Shown here in pieces: positions 7,203 through 62,151 of a stretch of DNA of 64,000 bases. Under the pieces are notes generated by a model. That model saw only the letters and a program-made list of their open reading frames with translations. It was not told the origin of the DNA and searched no databases. The stretch is taken from NCBI GenBank assembly GCA_025360005.1, contig JANYDA010000032.1:62001-126000 (forward strand). The letters run 5' to 3'. The position numbers were made by a program, and so were the translations under genes. How positions within the stretch are numbered: position 1 is the first letter of the stretch; each line of letters begins with the position of its first letter. The stretch is from Fibrobacteria bacterium. Its GTDB lineage: Bacteria; Fibrobacterota; Fibrobacteria; UBA11236.

Positions 7203-7239
7203 AACAGAAAAGGGGTGCGCCGAGCACCCCTTTTCTGTT
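7203..7239. terminator. bidirectional terminator, 16-bp perfect stem
   Basis: AACAGAAAAGGGGTGC pairs perfectly with GCACCCCTTTTCTGTT around a 5-nt loop (GCCGA). T-rich tracts follow the GC core in both directions, so it can end both the lipoprotein gene (+) and the convergent gene at 7255 (-). Confidence 0.85.
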
Positions 7240-10489: not shown

Positions 10490-10516
10490 TGGATTTCCCA
10501 TTTTTCACTTTGCATT
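10490..10516. repeat. heptad-repeat fragment related to the two palindromes in the flagellar operon
   Basis: The 27-bp spacer between murA and the ParA gene reads, on the minus strand, TGCAAAGTGAAAAATGGGA. Its first 13 bases match one arm of the palindrome at 31777-31899 exactly (TGCAAAGTGAAAA). It looks like a remnant of the same repeat family and now forms the leader of the ParA gene. Confidence 0.45.
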
Positions 10517-11830
10517 CTACCCTTCGACTACCGATATCGGCGTTCCCAGCGCCCGGAACTTCTCCACCACCCGGTCGTACCCTCGTTCGATATAATTCAC
10601 CCCGGAGATCTCCGTCTTGCCTTTGGCGAGCACGGCGGCCACCAAGTAGGAAAAACCGGCGCGCAGATCCGGGATCTCGATGTTGGCGCCTTTCAGCGGC
10701 GTGGGGCCCTGGATGATGGCGGAATGCTTGTGGCCGGAATTTCGGAAACGGCAATCGCGGCCGCCCAGGCATTCGTTATAGAGCTGGATCCGCGCGCCCA
10801 TGCGGTTGAGTGTTTCCGCATAACCGAAGCGGTTCTCGTAAACGGTCTCATGGATCACGGACATGCCCTCGGCTTGCGTGAGCAGGATGACCAGGGGTTG
10901 CTGCCAATCGGTCATCAGGCCCGGGTGCACGCCGGTCTCCACCGCGATGGGTTTGAGCTTGGAATTCACGCCGAAGAACCGGATGCCGTCCTCCACCATC
11001 TCGAACTCGCCTCCCGCCTTGCGCAACCAATTGAGGAAGGTGAGCATATGCAATTGATCCGCCCCGCGGATGAGCACGTCCCCGCGCGTGGCGATGGCGG
11101 ACACCGCGAAGGACGCGGCCTCGATCCGGTCGTTGATGACGCGATGCCGGGCGGCATGCAAATGGTCCACGCCCTGGATGATCCAGGTGCGATCGGTTTC
11201 CTGCGTGATGATGGCGCCCATGGATTGCAGGAAGAGCGCCAGGTCCACGATTTCGGGTTCGATGGCGGCGTTGCGGATCTCGGTGGTGCCATGCGCCGTG
11301 GCCGCGGCCATCATCAGGTTTTCCGTGGCTCCCACGCTGGGAAAAGGCAGGGTGATGCGCGCGCCCGCCAGCCGCTTGGATCGGAAATGGTAAGCGCCAT
11401 TCTGGTATTCGATCTTGGCGCCCAACCCGCGTAAGCCCTCCAGATGGAAGTCCACCGGGCGCGGGCCGATATCGCAACCCCCCATCATGGGGATTTCCGC
11501 CTTACCGAAGCGATGCAGGAGCACGCCCGCCAAGAGGATGGGAATCCGGTTCAGGCCGGAATATTCCTGGGGCACCACTTCCGTGGTGAGGTTGGCCGCG
11601 TCGATTTCAAGGATACCCGCTTCCTTGCGATGATCGATCTTGCACCCTATGGAAGTGAGGATTTGTTTGGTGATTTCCACGTCCCCGATTTCCGGAACGT
11701 TGTGGAGAACGGATTTGCCGGGCGCGAGCAAGGCCGCCACCATCTGCTTGGTGACCGCGTTCTTGGCGCCCCGGATGCGGATTTCGCCCTTCAGATAGCG
11801 CCCGCCCTCGATGATGAACTTTTTGGCCAT
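10517..11830 (-). CDS. murA: UDP-N-acetylglucosamine 1-carboxyvinyltransferase MurA
   Basis: MurA transfers enolpyruvyl from PEP to UDP-GlcNAc, the first committed step of peptidoglycan synthesis, in the cytoplasm. At 437 residues it has the usual length plus about 18. The UDP-sugar and PEP contacts are visible: GAKNAV (Lys about 23) and the active-site loop MGGCDIGPRPVD with the catalytic Cys at about 119. Because Cys is kept and not replaced by Asp, the enzyme should be of the fosfomycin-sensitive type. The C-terminal IPDLRAG block, usually near the end, is also present. The ATG at 11830 has only a weak Shine-Dalgarno. A divergent small motility-like gene begins 77 bp away. Confidence 0.96.
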   Translation of the reverse strand: MAKKFIIEGGRYLKGEIRIRGAKNAVTKQMVAALLAPGKSVLHNVPEIGDVEITKQILTSIGCKIDHRKEAGILEIDAANLTTEVVPQEYSGLNRIPILLAGVLLHRFGKAEIPMMGGCDIGPRPVDFHLEGLRGLGAKIEYQNGAYHFRSKRLAGARITLPFPSVGATENLMMAAATAHGTTEIRNAAIEPEIVDLALFLQSMGAIITQETDRTWIIQGVDHLHAARHRVINDRIEAASFAVSAIATRGDVLIRGADQLHMLTFLNWLRKAGGEFEMVEDGIRFFGVNSKLKPIAVETGVHPGLMTDWQQPLVILLTQAEGMSVIHETVYENRFGYAETLNRMGARIQLYNECLGGRDCRFRNSGHKHSAIIQGPTPLKGANIEIPDLRAGFSYLVAAVLAKGKTEISGVNYIERGYDRVVEKFRALGTPISVVEG

Positions 11831-27982: not shown

Positions 27983-28878
27983 AGGCCGCCGTCCCCGCCC
28001 TCGGATCCGGAAGCCTCGTCGCCGTCGGACTCGTCCACGGCGTCGGAACCGGCCGCGTCTTCCGGGCCTTTGAGGGCTTGCACCTTGGCCGCGAAGACGC
28101 GTTTCAATTCCTCGTCGATGCGATTGGCCAGTTCGTCCGCCTGCAGCCCCACCGAGGTGGAATCCGATTCCACGAAGCAACCGCCCTTGGGTATGCGCTC
28201 GTCGGAAACCACGCGCACATCCTTTGTCCCCGCGTCCACCGGCAACCAGAAATCCTGGTTATCCTGCACGATCCTGAAATCGGCGGGATTGATTTTCAAG
28301 GTCACGGTGGTGACCTGGCCCAGAGCCGTCACCGCCCTGCGGAGCAACGGCAGCACGGCGTCCGCATGATCCTTGGCCACTCCTTCGAATACGCGATGGA
28401 CGGTGGCGGAGAACAGCTCCAGGATCTGGCCCTCGAACTCCAGGAACAGCGATGCCTTTTCCTGGGAAAGCGCGTTCAGGCCCATGGCCGCGTTGCCGCG
28501 CAATTCCTCCAGGGCCGCCAGGTAATTGTCCCACGCTTGCTTTTCGCCTTCGCGCATGCCTTCTTCCCGGCCGCGCGCCCGGGCCGATTGCGCAGCCGCC
28601 TCCCCGTCCTTAACGGCCTTCTGCAGCGCCAGCTTGTGCGCCTGTTCGGCCTTGAGAGCGTTGCGAGACAACTCCTCGATCTTCACTTCCGATTCGTTGG
28701 GTTTCGGCAGGGCGCGTCCCGGCATGCTGAACGCCGTCATGGGAAAGCCTTTCATGCCGGCATCCGGCGCGGCCTCCCAATCGCCTTGCTTCATCACCCG
28801 CGCCGGCCCGTCCGCGGGAAGCTCCCGCTTGTCCCGGCCCGGCAATCCGTTCGCCTGCATTCCGAATCTGGATTCCAT
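27979..28878 (-). CDS. fliH: flagellar assembly protein FliH
   Basis: FliH regulates FliI and docks it on the export gate. I start at the ATG at 28878 (MESRFGMQ), which has CCGGAG about 7 nt upstream. The middle has a long helix with Ala/Glu/Lys and a G-R-E-E-G-M-R-E-G stretch, reminiscent of the GxxxG-rich FliH helix. The C-terminal globular part (VHRVFEGVAKDHADAVLPLLRRA, ADFRIV, GGCFVESDSTSVG) fits the FliH/HrpE/YscL fold. Unusually, the protein ends with a long Asp/Glu/Ser/Gly-rich acidic tail of about 20 residues. A 158-bp spacer with a palindromic repeat separates it from fliG. Confidence 0.85.
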   Translation of the reverse strand: MESRFGMQANGLPGRDKRELPADGPARVMKQGDWEAAPDAGMKGFPMTAFSMPGRALPKPNESEVKIEELSRNALKAEQAHKLALQKAVKDGEAAAQSARARGREEGMREGEKQAWDNYLAALEELRGNAAMGLNALSQEKASLFLEFEGQILELFSATVHRVFEGVAKDHADAVLPLLRRAVTALGQVTTVTLKINPADFRIVQDNQDFWLPVDAGTKDVRVVSDERIPKGGCFVESDSTSVGLQADELANRIDEELKRVFAAKVQALKGPEDAAGSDAVDESDGDEASGSEGGDGGL

Positions 28879-28908
28879 TATGACTCCGGAGTCGATACGG
28901 GAAAAAGC

Positions 28909-29026
28909 CAAATGTCAAAGCGCGAAATGCGAAATGCAAAATGGGAGGATCCTTCGCGGGCCGCCCTCCGGCTTTCTTCGCTCTTCAAATTTTGCGCCTT
29001 GCACTTTGAACTTCGCACTGTGAATT
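28909..29026. repeat. heptad-repeat palindrome between fliG and fliH
   Basis: The left arm holds 7-bp units GCGAAAT-GCGAAAT-GCAAAAT (28922 onward). The right arm runs TTTTGCG-CCTTGCA-CTTTGAA-CTTCGCA in the opposite sense (about 28991-29020). The arms can pair imperfectly over about 28 bp around a GC-rich centre. The base composition is clearly different from the neighbouring genes. It is non-coding and lies inside the operon. Confidence 0.6.
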
Positions 29027-29037
29027 CTCTCCCTGGG

Positions 29038-30096
29038 TCAAACCACAATCTCGTCATCGCCCCCGCGGCCGGAGATCACGATCTCCCCGTCGTCTTCCAG
29101 GCGCCTGACGATGTCCACTATGCGCTGCTGAGCGCCTTCCACGTCCTTGACCTTTACCGGTCCCATGAATGCCATGTCTTCCTTCATCATCTCCGCCGCG
29201 CGGCTGGACATGTTCTTGAAGAACTTGTCGCCCACGGTATCGCTGGCGCCTTTGAGGGCCAGGCCCAATTCCTTGGTGTCCACTTCCTTGAGCATACGCT
29301 GGATGCCGCGATCGTCCAGCAGCATGATGTCCTCGAACACGAACATGAGGTTCTTGATCTCGGTGGCCAACTCCGGATTCTCCCGCTCCAGGTTGCCCAG
29401 GATGTTCTTCTCGGCGCCGCGGTCGACCTGGTTGAGCATCTCCGCCACGAACTTGACGCCGCCCACTTCGGACACGTTGCCGCCGAACAGGCTCTTCATC
29501 TGCTGGGCCAGCACCTCTTCCACCTGCCCCAGCACGTCCGGAGACACGCTTTGCATGGTGGCCAGGCGCGTGGTGACGTCCACTTGCAGCTCTTGCGGGA
29601 GCGCGGACAGGATGGGCGCGGACATGGACGCTTCCATATGCGCCAGCAGCAAGGCGATGGTCTGGGGATGTTCCTTCTGGATGAAGTTGACCAACTGCGA
29701 CGGGTCCACGTCCTGCAACAGGCTGAAACCCGTGGTGCGGATGCTGCTCTGCACTTTTTCCAAAATCTCTTTCGCGCGCCGCGGCCCCATGGCGGCTTCC
29801 AGCGCCTGCCGCGCGTACTCCACGCCGCCTTGCAGAATGAACTTCTGGGCCACCGCCATCTGGTGGAACTCTTCCAGGACGCGCTCGCGCGTTTCCGGCG
29901 TGATGCCTTCCAGGCGGGCGATCTCGGAGGTGAGGATTTCCACGTCCTCATCGTCCAGGCTCTTGAAGATTTGCGCGCAAGCCTCCGGCCCCAAGGTCAC
30001 CATCATCACCGCCGCCTTGGTAGGCCCCGGGATGGTGAGAGTGGGTACGCGAGCGCTTTCGCTTTTGTTGTCCGGATCCGACTTCGCGTCAGCCAT
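29038..30096 (-). CDS. fliG: flagellar motor switch protein FliG
   Basis: FliG joins the MS ring to the C-ring and receives torque from MotA. The 352-residue length is normal. The N-terminal FliF-binding domain starts at about residue 20 (TKAAVMMVTLGPE). The middle domain contains the EHPQT motif (about 148-152). The C-terminal torque helix contains MLLDDRGIQRMLKEVD with the charged residues Asp/Arg/Asp expected to face MotA, followed by TKELGLALKG. The gene starts 5 nt after the fliF stop. Confidence 0.97.
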   Translation of the reverse strand: MADAKSDPDNKSESARVPTLTIPGPTKAAVMMVTLGPEACAQIFKSLDDEDVEILTSEIARLEGITPETRERVLEEFHQMAVAQKFILQGGVEYARQALEAAMGPRRAKEILEKVQSSIRTTGFSLLQDVDPSQLVNFIQKEHPQTIALLLAHMEASMSAPILSALPQELQVDVTTRLATMQSVSPDVLGQVEEVLAQQMKSLFGGNVSEVGGVKFVAEMLNQVDRGAEKNILGNLERENPELATEIKNLMFVFEDIMLLDDRGIQRMLKEVDTKELGLALKGASDTVGDKFFKNMSSRAAEMMKEDMAFMGPVKVKDVEGAQQRIVDIVRRLEDDGEIVISGRGGDDEIVV

Positions 30097-30101
30097 TTGC
30101 C

Positions 30102-31685
30102 TTAATCCTTGCCCGCGGCCTGTTTCTTCTTGCCCTTATCGCCACCACCATTGTCCCGTATTTTCTCCTCATGGAGCCACGTTTTGATGAGGTTGGCAAT
30201 ATTGATGGGCTCGGTGCGGGTCATGAACTCCACCCGCTCCAGGATGTCCTTTTGTTTTTGGACATTTTGGGGGACTTTTTCATCTTCCGGCTCCAGGTTC
30301 AGGCCTGCGTACTTGGGCATGGGGGGATTCATGGCGGAAGCCAGGTTCTGCACCAGCCCACGGAAGAACCACAGGCCGAAGAGGAGGATGAGCGCCACCA
30401 CGCCGTACTTCTTGAAGAAGTCCATCCGCTCGGTCTTCTCCAGCTTCTTCATCTCTTCCTGTTCTTCGACCATGAACTGATTGTCGAATTGCACATTGGT
30501 GACGAACACCTCATCCTTGGTGCCGGGCTTGAACCCCACGGCGTTCTTGACCAGGGCGGTGAACTTGTCCAGGTCCTCCTGGCTGCGCGGCACGTAGGTG
30601 CGGCTGCCGTCCTTCTCCACTTTGTAGGTCCCGTCTACGGCCACGGAAACGGTGATGCGCTTGCGGGCCCCGGGCATGCTCACTATGGAAGCCATGGTCT
30701 TGTCGAATTCGTAATTGGTAATCGATCCCTCCTTCTGCTCGGACTGCGCCTGGGGGCTGCCCTTGAGGGAATTCTCGTCGCGCTGCTGGGAACGGATCAC
30801 CTTGGTGTTGGGATCGTAGGATTCCACCGTCTTCTGCACCTGATCGAAATCCAGCTCCGCGGAAATCTTCACGCGCGTTTTGTTGGGGCCCAGCAGGCCC
30901 TGGAAGATATCGTCGATCTTCTGCTCCAGCTCTTTCTCCACGCTGTTCTGCAGCGTCTGGTTATGATCGGTCTGTTCCGCCAGCTGATTGTCGGCGAAGC
31001 CCTTGGTCAGCATGTTGCCGTGGATGTCCAGGACGGAAACCTGGCGGGGCTTGAGGCCTTCCACCGAGCTGGCCACCAGATGGGTGATACCGTTGACCAT
31101 GCGCTCATTTACCTCCTCGCCCGGACGCATCTTCAGGATCACGGAGGCGGTGGCCTCTTCCTTCTTTTCCGTGAAGAGGGAGGGCTTGGGTATCGTCACG
31201 TGCACGCGGGCCTTCTCCACTTCCTTCAGGCTCTCGATGGTGCGTGAGAGTTCGCCTTCCAACGCGCGTCGGTAATTCAGGTTCTGCACGAAATCGGTCA
31301 TGCCCAGATGCATCTTATCGAAGATCTCATATCCCTGCCCGCCAGTTTGCGGCAGCCCCACGCGCGCCATCTGCATACGCGCTTCATATAATTGGTCCTT
31401 GGGCACCGTCACCTGATGCCCGTTGTTCTCCAGTTTATACGGGGTCTTCATTTCCTTGAGCGCGTCCGTCACCTTGGCGGCGTCCTCCGGTTCCAGGTTG
31501 ACGAACAAAGTGGAATAACCCGAATCGGTCCCCCCGCTGCCTCCGGTGGCCGACCACGCAATGACGCTGATCATGCCCGCCAAAACCACCGCCGAAGTGG
31601 CGATCATAATGGCCTTCTGGGTGGCATTGAGCTTGTCCCAGATGGTGCGGAGCTGGATGATGAGTTGCTTCAGATATTCGGACAT
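30102..31685 (-). CDS. fliF: flagellar MS-ring protein FliF
   Basis: FliF forms the MS ring in the inner membrane, the base for flagellar assembly. The 527-residue protein has transmembrane helices at about 25-46 and about 435-455. Between them is the ring-building region with YSTLFVNLEPEDAAKV, MHLGMTDFVQNLNYRRALEGELSRTI (given in two parts) and KARVHVTIPKPSLF, all characteristic of FliF/YscJ. The C-terminal cytoplasmic tail holds the FliG-binding helix. GAGG lies 6 nt before the ATG. It follows fliE after a 248-bp spacer with a palindromic repeat. Confidence 0.97.
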   Translation of the reverse strand: MSEYLKQLIIQLRTIWDKLNATQKAIMIATSAVVLAGMISVIAWSATGGSGGTDSGYSTLFVNLEPEDAAKVTDALKEMKTPYKLENNGHQVTVPKDQLYEARMQMARVGLPQTGGQGYEIFDKMHLGMTDFVQNLNYRRALEGELSRTIESLKEVEKARVHVTIPKPSLFTEKKEEATASVILKMRPGEEVNERMVNGITHLVASSVEGLKPRQVSVLDIHGNMLTKGFADNQLAEQTDHNQTLQNSVEKELEQKIDDIFQGLLGPNKTRVKISAELDFDQVQKTVESYDPNTKVIRSQQRDENSLKGSPQAQSEQKEGSITNYEFDKTMASIVSMPGARKRITVSVAVDGTYKVEKDGSRTYVPRSQEDLDKFTALVKNAVGFKPGTKDEVFVTNVQFDNQFMVEEQEEMKKLEKTERMDFFKKYGVVALILLFGLWFFRGLVQNLASAMNPPMPKYAGLNLEPEDEKVPQNVQKQKDILERVEFMTRTEPINIANLIKTWLHEEKIRDNGGGDKGKKKQAAGKD

Positions 31686-31776
31686 GCGGACCTCGAAGGG
31701 GAAAAGACCGGTACTATGAAAAAGAGCTAAAGGATTTCAGGGAACGGGACGATGAACTGAAGAGGGGAGGATGCGA

Positions 31777-31899
31777 AGAATTTTGCAAATTGAAAATTGA
31801 AAATTGCAACATGCAAATTGTAAGAGGGATGCCGCATTGCCTGTTTTTTCTCGCATGGATTCCAATTTTCACTTTGCAATTTTCAATTTGCAAAATTCT
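31777..31899. repeat. heptad-repeat palindrome between fliE and fliF
   Basis: A perfect 23-bp inverted repeat (31777-31799 against 31877-31899; arm begins AGAATTTTGCAAATTG) encloses a 77-bp centre. Both arms consist of 7-bp units of the kind TGCAAAT/TGAAAAT and continue imperfectly inward. It is strongly A/T-rich in an otherwise GC-rich operon. No ORF is present. It shares its unit type with the element at 28909-29026 and the fragment at 10490-10516. Confidence 0.75.
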
Positions 31900-31933
31900 C
31901 TTTCTCTTCTGAAGGACCGCGGAGCTCCGCAAT

Positions 31934-32248
31934 CTACCCTCTCATCCTCATCACTTCCTGATACGCTTCCATCGTCTTGTTGCGGATTTCCAGGAGTAGG
32001 TTGAAGGCCACCTTGGCTTCGCCCACGGCCAGCATCACCTGGTGCACGTCCTTGACCTCGCCGGATACCATCTTCTGGATGGATTGGTCCGCCTTCAACT
32101 GCATCTCGTTCACGTCCTTTAGGAATCCCGTGAACATATCGTTGAAATTCGCGCTGCCTTCTTTGGGCTTGGTCGACGGCTGCGCGGTCGGCGCCAGTTC
32201 GATTTCCTTGGGAGGACCTACGTTCAGGATGGGGTTCAGATCTGCCAT
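31934..32248 (-). CDS. fliE: flagellar hook-basal body protein FliE
   Basis: FliE links the MS ring to the proximal rod in the periplasm. The 104-residue length is normal. The conserved end is present: KADQSIQKMVSGEVKDVHQ followed by VMLAVGEAKVAFNLLLEIRNKTMEAYQEVMRM (read here as two blocks). GGAG lies 5 nt before the ATG. The N-terminal 30 residues are Pro-rich and variable, as usual. Confidence 0.95.
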   Translation of the reverse strand: MADLNPILNVGPPKEIELAPTAQPSTKPKEGSANFNDMFTGFLKDVNEMQLKADQSIQKMVSGEVKDVHQVMLAVGEAKVAFNLLLEIRNKTMEAYQEVMRMRG

Positions 32249-32256
32249 ATCGTCTC

Positions 32257-32619
32257 CTACGCCGTGAAATCAACATGCCGGCCCAGCGTCGGCTTGGAGT
32301 CCTGTTTCTCTACACCGCCGGTGCGGCCATAGGCCGAAGATCCGGTCAGGCCCGGCAATGCCGAAGCCGCGTTCCCGGGGGCGGGCGCAGCGGCCGGTTT
32401 CGACGGGATGCGCTCCGCCGGATTCCGGGCCGCAGTGCCGGACGCTTTAGCCGCGGTCGCGTTGCCGCTTCCCAGCTCCAATTGTTTCCTTTTGATCAAT
32501 TCCGCCAAGCCCGCTTGCCCGTCCGCGCCGTCGATCTTTTTCTTGGCTGAATCCCGGATCGCCTGGAACCGTTCCAGCGCCGAACCGGCATCGCTTCCGC
32601 CAATCCCTTTCAATGCCAT
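32257..32619 (-). CDS. hypothetical protein inside the flagellar operon
   Basis: The 120-residue protein sits between flgC and fliE and is well placed to be translated: AGAGGA lies 8 nt before the ATG, and its stop is close to the fliE start. The first 50 residues are helical and charged (LERFQAIRDSAKKKID, LAELIKRKQLEL). The rest is Ala/Pro/Ser-rich and probably disordered. It ends TLGRHVDFTA. That tail resembles the end of the small motility-like protein at 11908 (VGGRIDVRA). No known flagellar family is recognised. It may be a lineage-specific rod or export accessory protein; this is inference from context only. Confidence 0.7.
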   Translation of the reverse strand: MALKGIGGSDAGSALERFQAIRDSAKKKIDGADGQAGLAELIKRKQLELGSGNATAAKASGTAARNPAERIPSKPAAAPAPGNAASALPGLTGSSAYGRTGGVEKQDSKPTLGRHVDFTA

Positions 32620-32657
32620 CCGCTAATCCTCTCAGCCATCCCCGCTGCCTCGGCCAT

Positions 32658-33164
32658 TCAGATATCCAGGGCCTTCATCAGCATGGCCTTGGTCGAATTC
32701 ATCGCCGTCACGCTCGCTTCATAGGAGCGCGTGGCCGTGATCATGTCGGTCATTTCCTGCACCACGTTCACGTTGGGCATGGCCACATAGCCTTCGCTGT
32801 TGGCGTCCGGATGGGTAGGATCGTATACCAGCTTGGCCGGAGTCTGATCCTGCTCTACCGAAGCCACTTCCACGCCGCTGCCCACATGGTCCTTGTCCAA
32901 CGGGAAACCGGGTTCCGGAATGGGGATATGATCGCTGTGGGTGGTGAATCCCTGCATCTTGTCGGGACCGAAAATGAAACGCTTCTCCGGGTCGACGGGA
33001 TTCTCGCGCAGGACCACGAATTGGCGCTTGTAGGGGCCGCCGTCCTTGGTGCGCGTGGTTTCCGCGTTGGCCAGGTTGCTGGAGATGACGTTCTGCCGCA
33101 TGCGCTGGGCGCGCAGGCCGCTCGCGCTGATCGACAATCCCGAGAACATATCCATCATGCCCAT
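32658..33164 (-). CDS. flgC: flagellar basal-body rod protein FlgC
   Basis: FlgC is a proximal rod subunit assembled in the periplasm through the flagellar export gate. The 168-residue protein begins MGMMDMFSGLSISASGL. The rod signature NVISSNLANAETT lies at about 25-37. The C-terminal flagellar helix is NVNVVQEMTDMITATRSYEASV and contains the conserved NV-x-EM and Y-E-A residues. AGGA lies 8 nt upstream. The protein ends LMKALDI, as is typical. Confidence 0.97.
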   Translation of the reverse strand: MGMMDMFSGLSISASGLRAQRMRQNVISSNLANAETTRTKDGGPYKRQFVVLRENPVDPEKRFIFGPDKMQGFTTHSDHIPIPEPGFPLDKDHVGSGVEVASVEQDQTPAKLVYDPTHPDANSEGYVAMPNVNVVQEMTDMITATRSYEASVTAMNSTKAMLMKALDI

Positions 33165-61861: not shown

Positions 61862-62151
61862 GCCAACTCCGGGTGTGCGCACCCTTTTTTGACGGCGTCA
61901 TGGAAACCCTCGGACCATCAGGAAAGACTATCCAGCTTCAGGATTCCCATGCGAACCGGCTCCGGTAATTTTATACTTATTCAGGGGGTAAATTCAATCT
62001 TAAGCCATCCAAACCGGGCCGATGCCGCATCCGATCCGATAATAAGTACTTTTGCTCATCCTGAAGGTGCAGCATTGGCCGGCTCCGACCTTGACATCGG
62101 CTTGAAACCCCTGCCCGAATCCCTCTTTCCAGGCACAAGCGAAACACGCGT

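Follow-up and report, generated by a model that had tools for sequence, protein, structure and literature searches.

A heptad-repeat palindrome between fliE and fliF is probably an ORF-less relative of elements that carry S23 genes

INTRODUCTION

What is a long palindrome made of 7-bp units doing inside a flagellar operon? The question is raised by the spacer between fliE and fliF in a member of the Fibrobacteria. For decades, heptad repeats have been recorded in one bacterial group after another without explanation, and the cyanobacterial STRRs were originally a descriptive class. One report describes GGGAATC heptamers in Xanthomonas and Nostoc, 70 to 75 of the Xanthomonas cases being convergent inverted pairs (PMC4692102), and another describes TAACTGA repeats in Beggiatoaceae, Cyanobacteria, and Bacteroidetes without giving a mechanism (PMC4679880). 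The roles proposed for heptamers in these reports are G-quadruplex, translational, or unknown, and the passages on the repeats make no connection to S23 genes (PMC4692102, PMC4679880). In the intervening sequence (IVS) of Coxiella burnetii, tandem GACAGAT heptamers precede the S23p ORF, and excision is by RNase III; a homopentamer form of S23 is cited in the same work (PMC4990558). Our literature search, confined to open-licence publications, found no general link between heptad repeats and S23 genes.

Here we propose, with a probability of about 0.7, that the fliE-fliF palindrome is an ORF-less, REPIN-like member or relative of a class of small mobile elements, which we call S23-heptad elements. 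In the complete form, an inverted pair of heptad arrays encloses one gene for a four-helix-bundle protein (PF05635/TIGR02436); in the ORF-less form, paired heptad arms surround a short, unique interior.

RESULTS

Structure of the fliE-fliF palindrome

The window, which is the whole stretch of 64,000 nucleotides analyzed here, covers positions 62001 to 126000 of contig 32 of the host genome (G000; 4.98 Mb in 65 contigs, 98% complete). The features at the locus are as follows.

31777..31799 (+), left perfect arm, 23 bp, AAATTGM heptads, sequence AGAATTTTGCAAATTGAAAATTG
31877..31899 (-), right perfect arm, 23 bp, exact reverse complement of the left arm
31777..31823 (+), entire left heptad array, decaying inward: TTGCAAA TTGAAAA TTGAAAA TTGCAAC ATGCAAA TTGTAA
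31861..31899 (-), entire right heptad array, inverted
31824..31860, interior of the element, with no second genomic copy
30102..31685 (-), fliF, downstream of the palindrome, with orthologues in five congeners (protein identity 85 to 91%)
31934..32248 (-), fliE, upstream of the palindrome, with orthologues found in congeners

A sequence-only reading had described two perfect 23-bp arms, 77 bp apart, in a noncoding, A/T-rich position between fliF and fliE, and we found exactly this arrangement: the palindrome is AT-rich in a window of 60% GC, and the ORFs of 66 to 135 codons that overlap it are spurious, none being fliE, fliF, or a four-helix-bundle gene. The period of seven given in that reading also stood, with the unit, then written TGCAAAT/TGAAAAT, better expressed as AAATTGM (TTGCAAA/TTGAAAA). 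The arm length of 23 bp applies to the perfect match. The arms extend to 27 bp if one mismatch is allowed, and the heptad arrays continue inward past them, so that the full imperfect inverted repeat has 40 bp per arm at 85% identity.

The 23-bp arms are the longest exact inverted repeat (within 120 bp) in the window. By chance, exact inverted repeats reached at most 14 bp for the window (20 first-order Markov simulations) and at most 13 bp for a 140-bp segment (500 simulations using the segment's own dinucleotide composition). Within the window, strong lag-7 periodicity was confined to the palindrome, and no comparable signal appeared anywhere in the window at the other periods from 4 to 12. 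No Rfam family matched window positions 28500 to 33000 at the gathering threshold. The transcript of the palindrome would fold into a long stem, better than shuffled sequences (z = -3.6). Such a stem would suit an alternative, a fixed regulatory hairpin (an attenuator or RNase III processing site) that fixes fliE output relative to the genes downstream and that selection on pairing maintains.

Dispersal of heptad palindromes in the host genome

For the host census, we combined whole-genome pattern searches with the examination of approximately 0.7 Mb of contigs. Allowing up to 2 mismatches, a 20-mer taken from the arm matched the genome 78 times, compared to 0 matches for the reversed pattern, and a looser three-heptad pattern matched 179 times, compared to 2. 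Dozens of heptad palindromes are scattered over the host genome. In de novo inverted-repeat scans of contigs, period-7 palindromes predominated and occurred in several units, namely, AAATTGM, AAAGTGC/AAAATGC, and CGTCGGG in the host and GGGTAAA and AAGGTYT in congeners. Judged by a simple home-made gene finder, 21 of 25 palindromic elements were located mostly outside predicted genes. Two further elements lie in the window.

28905..29027, second ORF-less heptad palindrome, AAATGCR/AAAGTKC unit, imperfect arms
10493..10519 (-), solo arm remnant, 27 bp, AAAGTGAAAAATGG...

The regulatory alternative gains something from the setting of these palindromes, since 17 of the 21 intergenic elements have co-directional flanking genes, although this is also true for 251 of 431 background spacers. 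Against it, the same units recur at dozens of unrelated loci, and the arms are not matched element by element: for type-A elements, the similarity of an element's own two arms was 0.854, the same as for re-paired arms (0.854; permutation test, p = 0.47). For type-A elements, an attenuation hairpin, an option named in the sequence-only reading, is consequently not supported as an individually selected feature, since pairing is not kept element by element despite the stem predicted at fliE-fliF.

The interiors of the ORF-less elements are unique, and their arms vary in both length and sequence. At fliE-fliF, a 67-bp query (31812-31878) gave a significant match in the genome only to itself. Like MITEs, heptad palindromes are short and noncoding, have inverted ends, and differ in presence between species; unlike MITEs, whose copies share terminal repeats and interior, they have no conserved interior, and we saw no obvious target duplication and, in a survey for Y1_Tnp, found no parental transposase. 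A classical MITE is accordingly not supported. The tandem 7-bp units, the dispersal, and the intergenic position are instead those of STRR-type repeats.

Other hairpins were present in these genomes. A terminator-like hairpin at window positions 7203 to 7239 has a perfect 16-bp stem and a 5-bp loop (AACAGAAAAGGGGTGC...), and a similar one occurs in G002 (contig 122, 27721-27749). On the same G002 contig, the interiors of CGTCGGG palindromes at 82434-82586 and 133817-133965 contain terminator-like hairpins between A and T runs.

Orthologous spacers in congeners

We then compared presence and absence between the host and five other species of the genus (G001 to G005). Heptad arrays are present in the fliE-fliF spacer in all six species, with only one clear arm in G002. 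The unit is GGGTAAA in G003, AAGGTTT in G005, AAGTTAAAAGTCA-like in G001, and mixed and AAA-rich in G004. Between species, the unit, arm length, and interior are unrelated, while the flanks are conserved. Because the sequence just upstream of fliF is recognizably conserved, turnover of the element must be far more rapid than that of the sequence around it.

The presence of arrays in six of six species, together with a T-run after the pyrimidine arm in G003 and G005, is what a regulatory hairpin would lead one to expect. The unrelated units, arm lengths, and interiors speak against such a hairpin, as do other spacers that are empty in some congeners. The element at 28905-29027 is missing in G002, where the orthologous spacer is 23 bp long, and in G004, where it is 13 bp long, and the site of the 10493-10519 arm holds a full 115-bp heptad palindrome in G005 and is a 12-bp spacer in G002. 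ORF-less elements therefore show insertion polymorphism among congeners, and we regard a fixed regulatory hairpin at fliE-fliF as improbable. What the sequence-only reading had proposed as a mobile or amplifying, STRR-like intergenic repeat was borne out by the dozens of dispersed copies and by orthologous spacers that differ by presence and absence. It had asked whether the arm recurs in the genome and whether the spacer is strictly conserved in relatives; many further arm copies were found, and the heptad element is kept in six species with a different sequence in each.

A separate motif upstream of fliF (window 31718-31764, minus strand) consists of GTTCATCG, approximately 8 to 10 bp, TGAARTCCT, and then an A/T-rich stretch. 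It is recognizable in all six species, while the remainder of the spacer turns over, and is possibly the fliF promoter or leader.

S23 genes sit between heptad arms

Genes of the PF05635 family (23S_rRNA_IVP, TIGR02436) were present in 36 of 61 related genomes. Among the 30 S23 genes first taken from these relatives, inverted heptad arms were found at 17 by a strict automatic scan and at all 30 by inspection. We also examined 80 named S23 loci from one scan of public genomes of many phyla, including Chloroflexota, Proteobacteria, Planctomycetota, Kiritimatiellota, Bacteroidota, Cyanobacteria, Acidobacteriota, Gemmatimonadota, Clostridia, Fibrobacterota, and others. Strong lag-7 arrays flanked both sides in 51 of the 80 loci, compared to none of 80 control regions approximately 0.5 kb away, and seven was the best period in 63 and 62 of the 80 flanks, compared to 4 to 5 of 80 in controls. 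The remaining 29 loci fell below the two-arm threshold, and in a few loci (e.g., L317 and L214), the arms are in direct rather than inverted orientation. Plasmid-borne TIGR02436 genes of a more distant branch had arrays on both sides in six of six cases (cyanobacteria, Bernardetia, and Treponema).

The link between arms and gene extends to sequence. Within an S23 element, the same unit recurs in the left and the right arm (distance, 0.174, versus 0.484 ± 0.011 after re-pairing), and the similarity of heptad units tracks that of S23 proteins (Mantel r = 0.25, p = 0.0005). Across phyla, the arms fit one loose heptad logo, roughly KGRNYAG, beyond a phase-permuted control. The common logo of the 51 named loci often contains TAG; with seven-base spacing, each of the three frames of the outer-to-inner strand then meets a stop codon once per 21 bases.

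Two settings of S23 genes were unusual. In the Anabaena cylindrica plasmid pANACY.01 (L317), a four-helix-bundle gene and heptad arrays that both run in the same direction lie between cas2 and cas1. At L123/L124 and L132, and in the same manner at the named locus L247, complete S23-heptad elements lie inside long open frames with DNA methyltransferase domains (N6_N4_Mtase; Eco57I-type), and the host frame stays open across the insert in L123, L124, and L132.

To our knowledge, no function has so far been assigned to the four-helix-bundle proteins encoded in 23S rRNA intervening sequences, and we know of no recombinase or nuclease motif in the S23 protein. Homologues with solved structures (PDB 2GSC and 2RLD) were deposited as uncharacterized proteins.

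In G003 and G005, ORF-less palindromes share the units of S23 genes in the same genome

Neither the fliE-fliF element nor any other part of the host genome contains a PF05635/TIGR02436 gene. The fliE-fliF feature, made of inverted arrays of 7-bp units in an intergenic spacer, is therefore filed only as an ORF-less relative, and the G000 elements are orphans because the gene is absent from that genome. In congeners with S23 genes, the units can be compared directly. G005 has exactly three TIGR02436 genes, with CGTCGGG, AAGGTTT, and AAAAGTG arms, and four ORF-less palindromes in 60 kb of this genome use exactly these three units. Three AAGGTYT heptads in a row were counted 202 times in G005 and never in 20 other genomes, five congeners among them. 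The single S23 gene of G003 has GGGTAAA arms, and the three ORF-less palindromes that share its contig are built of GGGTAAA/GGGTTAA units. At fliE-fliF itself, the unit is shared with S23 arms of the same genome in G003 and G005 and not in G000. The AAATTGM unit of the host resembles, by eye, the arms of the more distant TIGR02436 branch, and its cognate S23 gene may have been lost.

A profile search at maximum sensitivity gave no credible match to relics of the S23 gene in ORF-less interiors. Since these interiors are also unique, descent of the palindromes from a single master by simple deletion is not supported. One orthologous site, with flanks 72 to 79% identical on both sides, occurs in three states: an S23 gene with GGGTAAA arms in G003, an S23 gene with AAGGTTT arms in G005, and an ORF-less type-A heptad remnant in G000. 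This interchange of complete and ORF-less forms is our most direct reason for placing the fliE-fliF palindrome, as an ORF-less form, among the S23-heptad elements.

The palindromes might instead be MITEs or REPINs of the usual kind, mobilized by a classical transposase (RAYT/Y1 or DDE), with the S23 genes as passengers at such sites. They are, after all, dispersed, intergenic, ORF-less inverted repeats, and in REPIN-RAYT systems, too, one gene is accompanied by many satellite palindromes. This explanation is unlikely, given that the elements lack a common interior, that the heptad unit matches S23 genes of the same genome, and that S23 genes of many phyla carry arms. The transposase survey covered Y1_Tnp, which is absent from G000, G002, G003, G004, and G005, and we rejected RAYT involvement on this basis. 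Reverse transcriptase involvement was likewise rejected: no RVT_1 was found in G000 to G004 or G006, though G002, G003, and G006 hold S23 genes.

Probable repeated filling of the lysS-lolC spacer

In 30 species of a related genus, the lysS-lolC spacer is empty (3 to 7 bp) in 13, carries a 24-bp remnant in 3, and is filled in 14 by complete elements of 441 to 507 bp. The S23 proteins of these fillers are 40 to 100% identical to one reference and belong to several lineages, their units differ (AGTAGAC/AGTAGGA, AGTGGTT/AGTAAAC, AGACGAG, and others), and some of the elements (L146, L155, and L161) lie within remnants that have another unit. This pattern would be better explained by repeated, independent insertion into a favored spacer than by vertical descent and loss. 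Target-site duplication was not obvious at the lysS-lolC junctions, where the divergence of the species limits what junctions can show.

On the lysS side of the insertion (L146, L161, L162, L165, L167, and others), there are short hairpins with GAA or TTT loops. They copy the 3' end of lysS, inverted, beside the inserted element (in L167, GAGAGCTGCTAGGC-TTT-GCCTAGCTGCTCTC), which suggests fold-back synthesis at the insertion border in these genomes. Fold-back hairpins with arms of at least 7 bp occur at 5.1% of insertion edges, compared to 1.3% of controls; because they are mostly from Fibrobacter-like genomes, we rejected them as a general feature.

Small fold-back hairpins that copy the flank at some S23 insertion borders in Fibrobacter-like genomes, together with the variable copy number of the arrays, could also mean that the arrays arise passively, much like microsatellites, from replication slippage and from fold-back synthesis at quasi-palindromes, without any protein. 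Such a process accounts neither for one species-specific unit at approximately 100 places or the strict period of seven nor for the linkage of the unit to S23 genes, and we consider it very improbable.

DISCUSSION

We infer that S23-heptad elements are mobile and, from the linkage of heptad arms to S23 genes, that S23 drives the movement in trans. The S23 protein, perhaps as the homopentamer seen in crystal structures, would recognize its cognate heptad arms and aid host DNA-processing enzymes in placing the complete element into intergenic sites. ORF-less palindromes would be placed in trans by the same protein, much as RAYT does for REPINs, and spacers in which an older heptad element already resides would be among the target sites. 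If transcribed, the arms would form a long stem open to cleavage by RNase III, as happens with 23S rRNA intervening sequences; such cleavage, we propose, would make insertion in operons such as fliE-fliF tolerable.

REPIN-RAYT systems consist of one gene plus many satellite ORF-less palindromes. S23-heptad elements resemble them in that a repeat-flanked gene is accompanied by ORF-less palindromes in which its genome-specific repeat stands in inverted pairs, but they lack a RAYT (Y1_Tnp is absent from the host), they have a heptad array in place of the REP hairpin, and their protein is a four-helix bundle without known catalysis. With the 23S rRNA IVS of Leptospira and C. burnetii, they share an S23-family protein between inverted repeats and a small, selfish, and sporadic character. 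The IVS are found in 23S rRNA helices, whereas S23-heptad elements occupy ordinary intergenic regions, the fliE-fliF element lies in a protein-gene spacer and has no ORF, and heptad arms are not stated as a general feature in PMC4990558. A related four-helix-bundle family is Avd of diversity-generating retroelements (NF033474 match, E = 2e-8, below the cutoff of that model), from which the present system differs in that reverse transcriptase is absent from G000 to G004 and G006.

STRR, GGGAATC, and TAACTGA repeats are similarly intergenic, with a 7-bp unit and many copies. Sampled S23 genes of Xanthomonas and cyanobacteria carry such heptad arms, and heptad patterns outnumbered their reversed counterparts in Xanthomonas (388 versus 0) and Pseudoxanthomonas (176 versus 4); for cyanobacteria, this control is uninformative, since the arrays there match the reversed pattern as well. 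We tentatively suggest, at a little short of an even chance, that the heptad palindromes of many phyla (cyanobacterial STRRs, Xanthomonas GGGAATC, and Beggiatoa TAACTGA) form one ancient mobile class whose sole gene is S23, which moves without a known transposase or reverse transcriptase, in which unit and protein coevolve, and in which new elements replace old ones at the same sites.

Within the genus, wherever S23 genes were found, the ORF-less palindromes have the same units as S23 genes in their genome. Reading heptads as the arms of elements whose single gene is S23 links two unexplained things and would connect several bacterial repeat families that lack an explanation to the S23 gene. 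It would also explain a class of insertions inside operons, offer a REPIN-like system that moves without a recognizable transposase, and give a very common, conserved protein family a testable function, the binding or moving of heptad arms.
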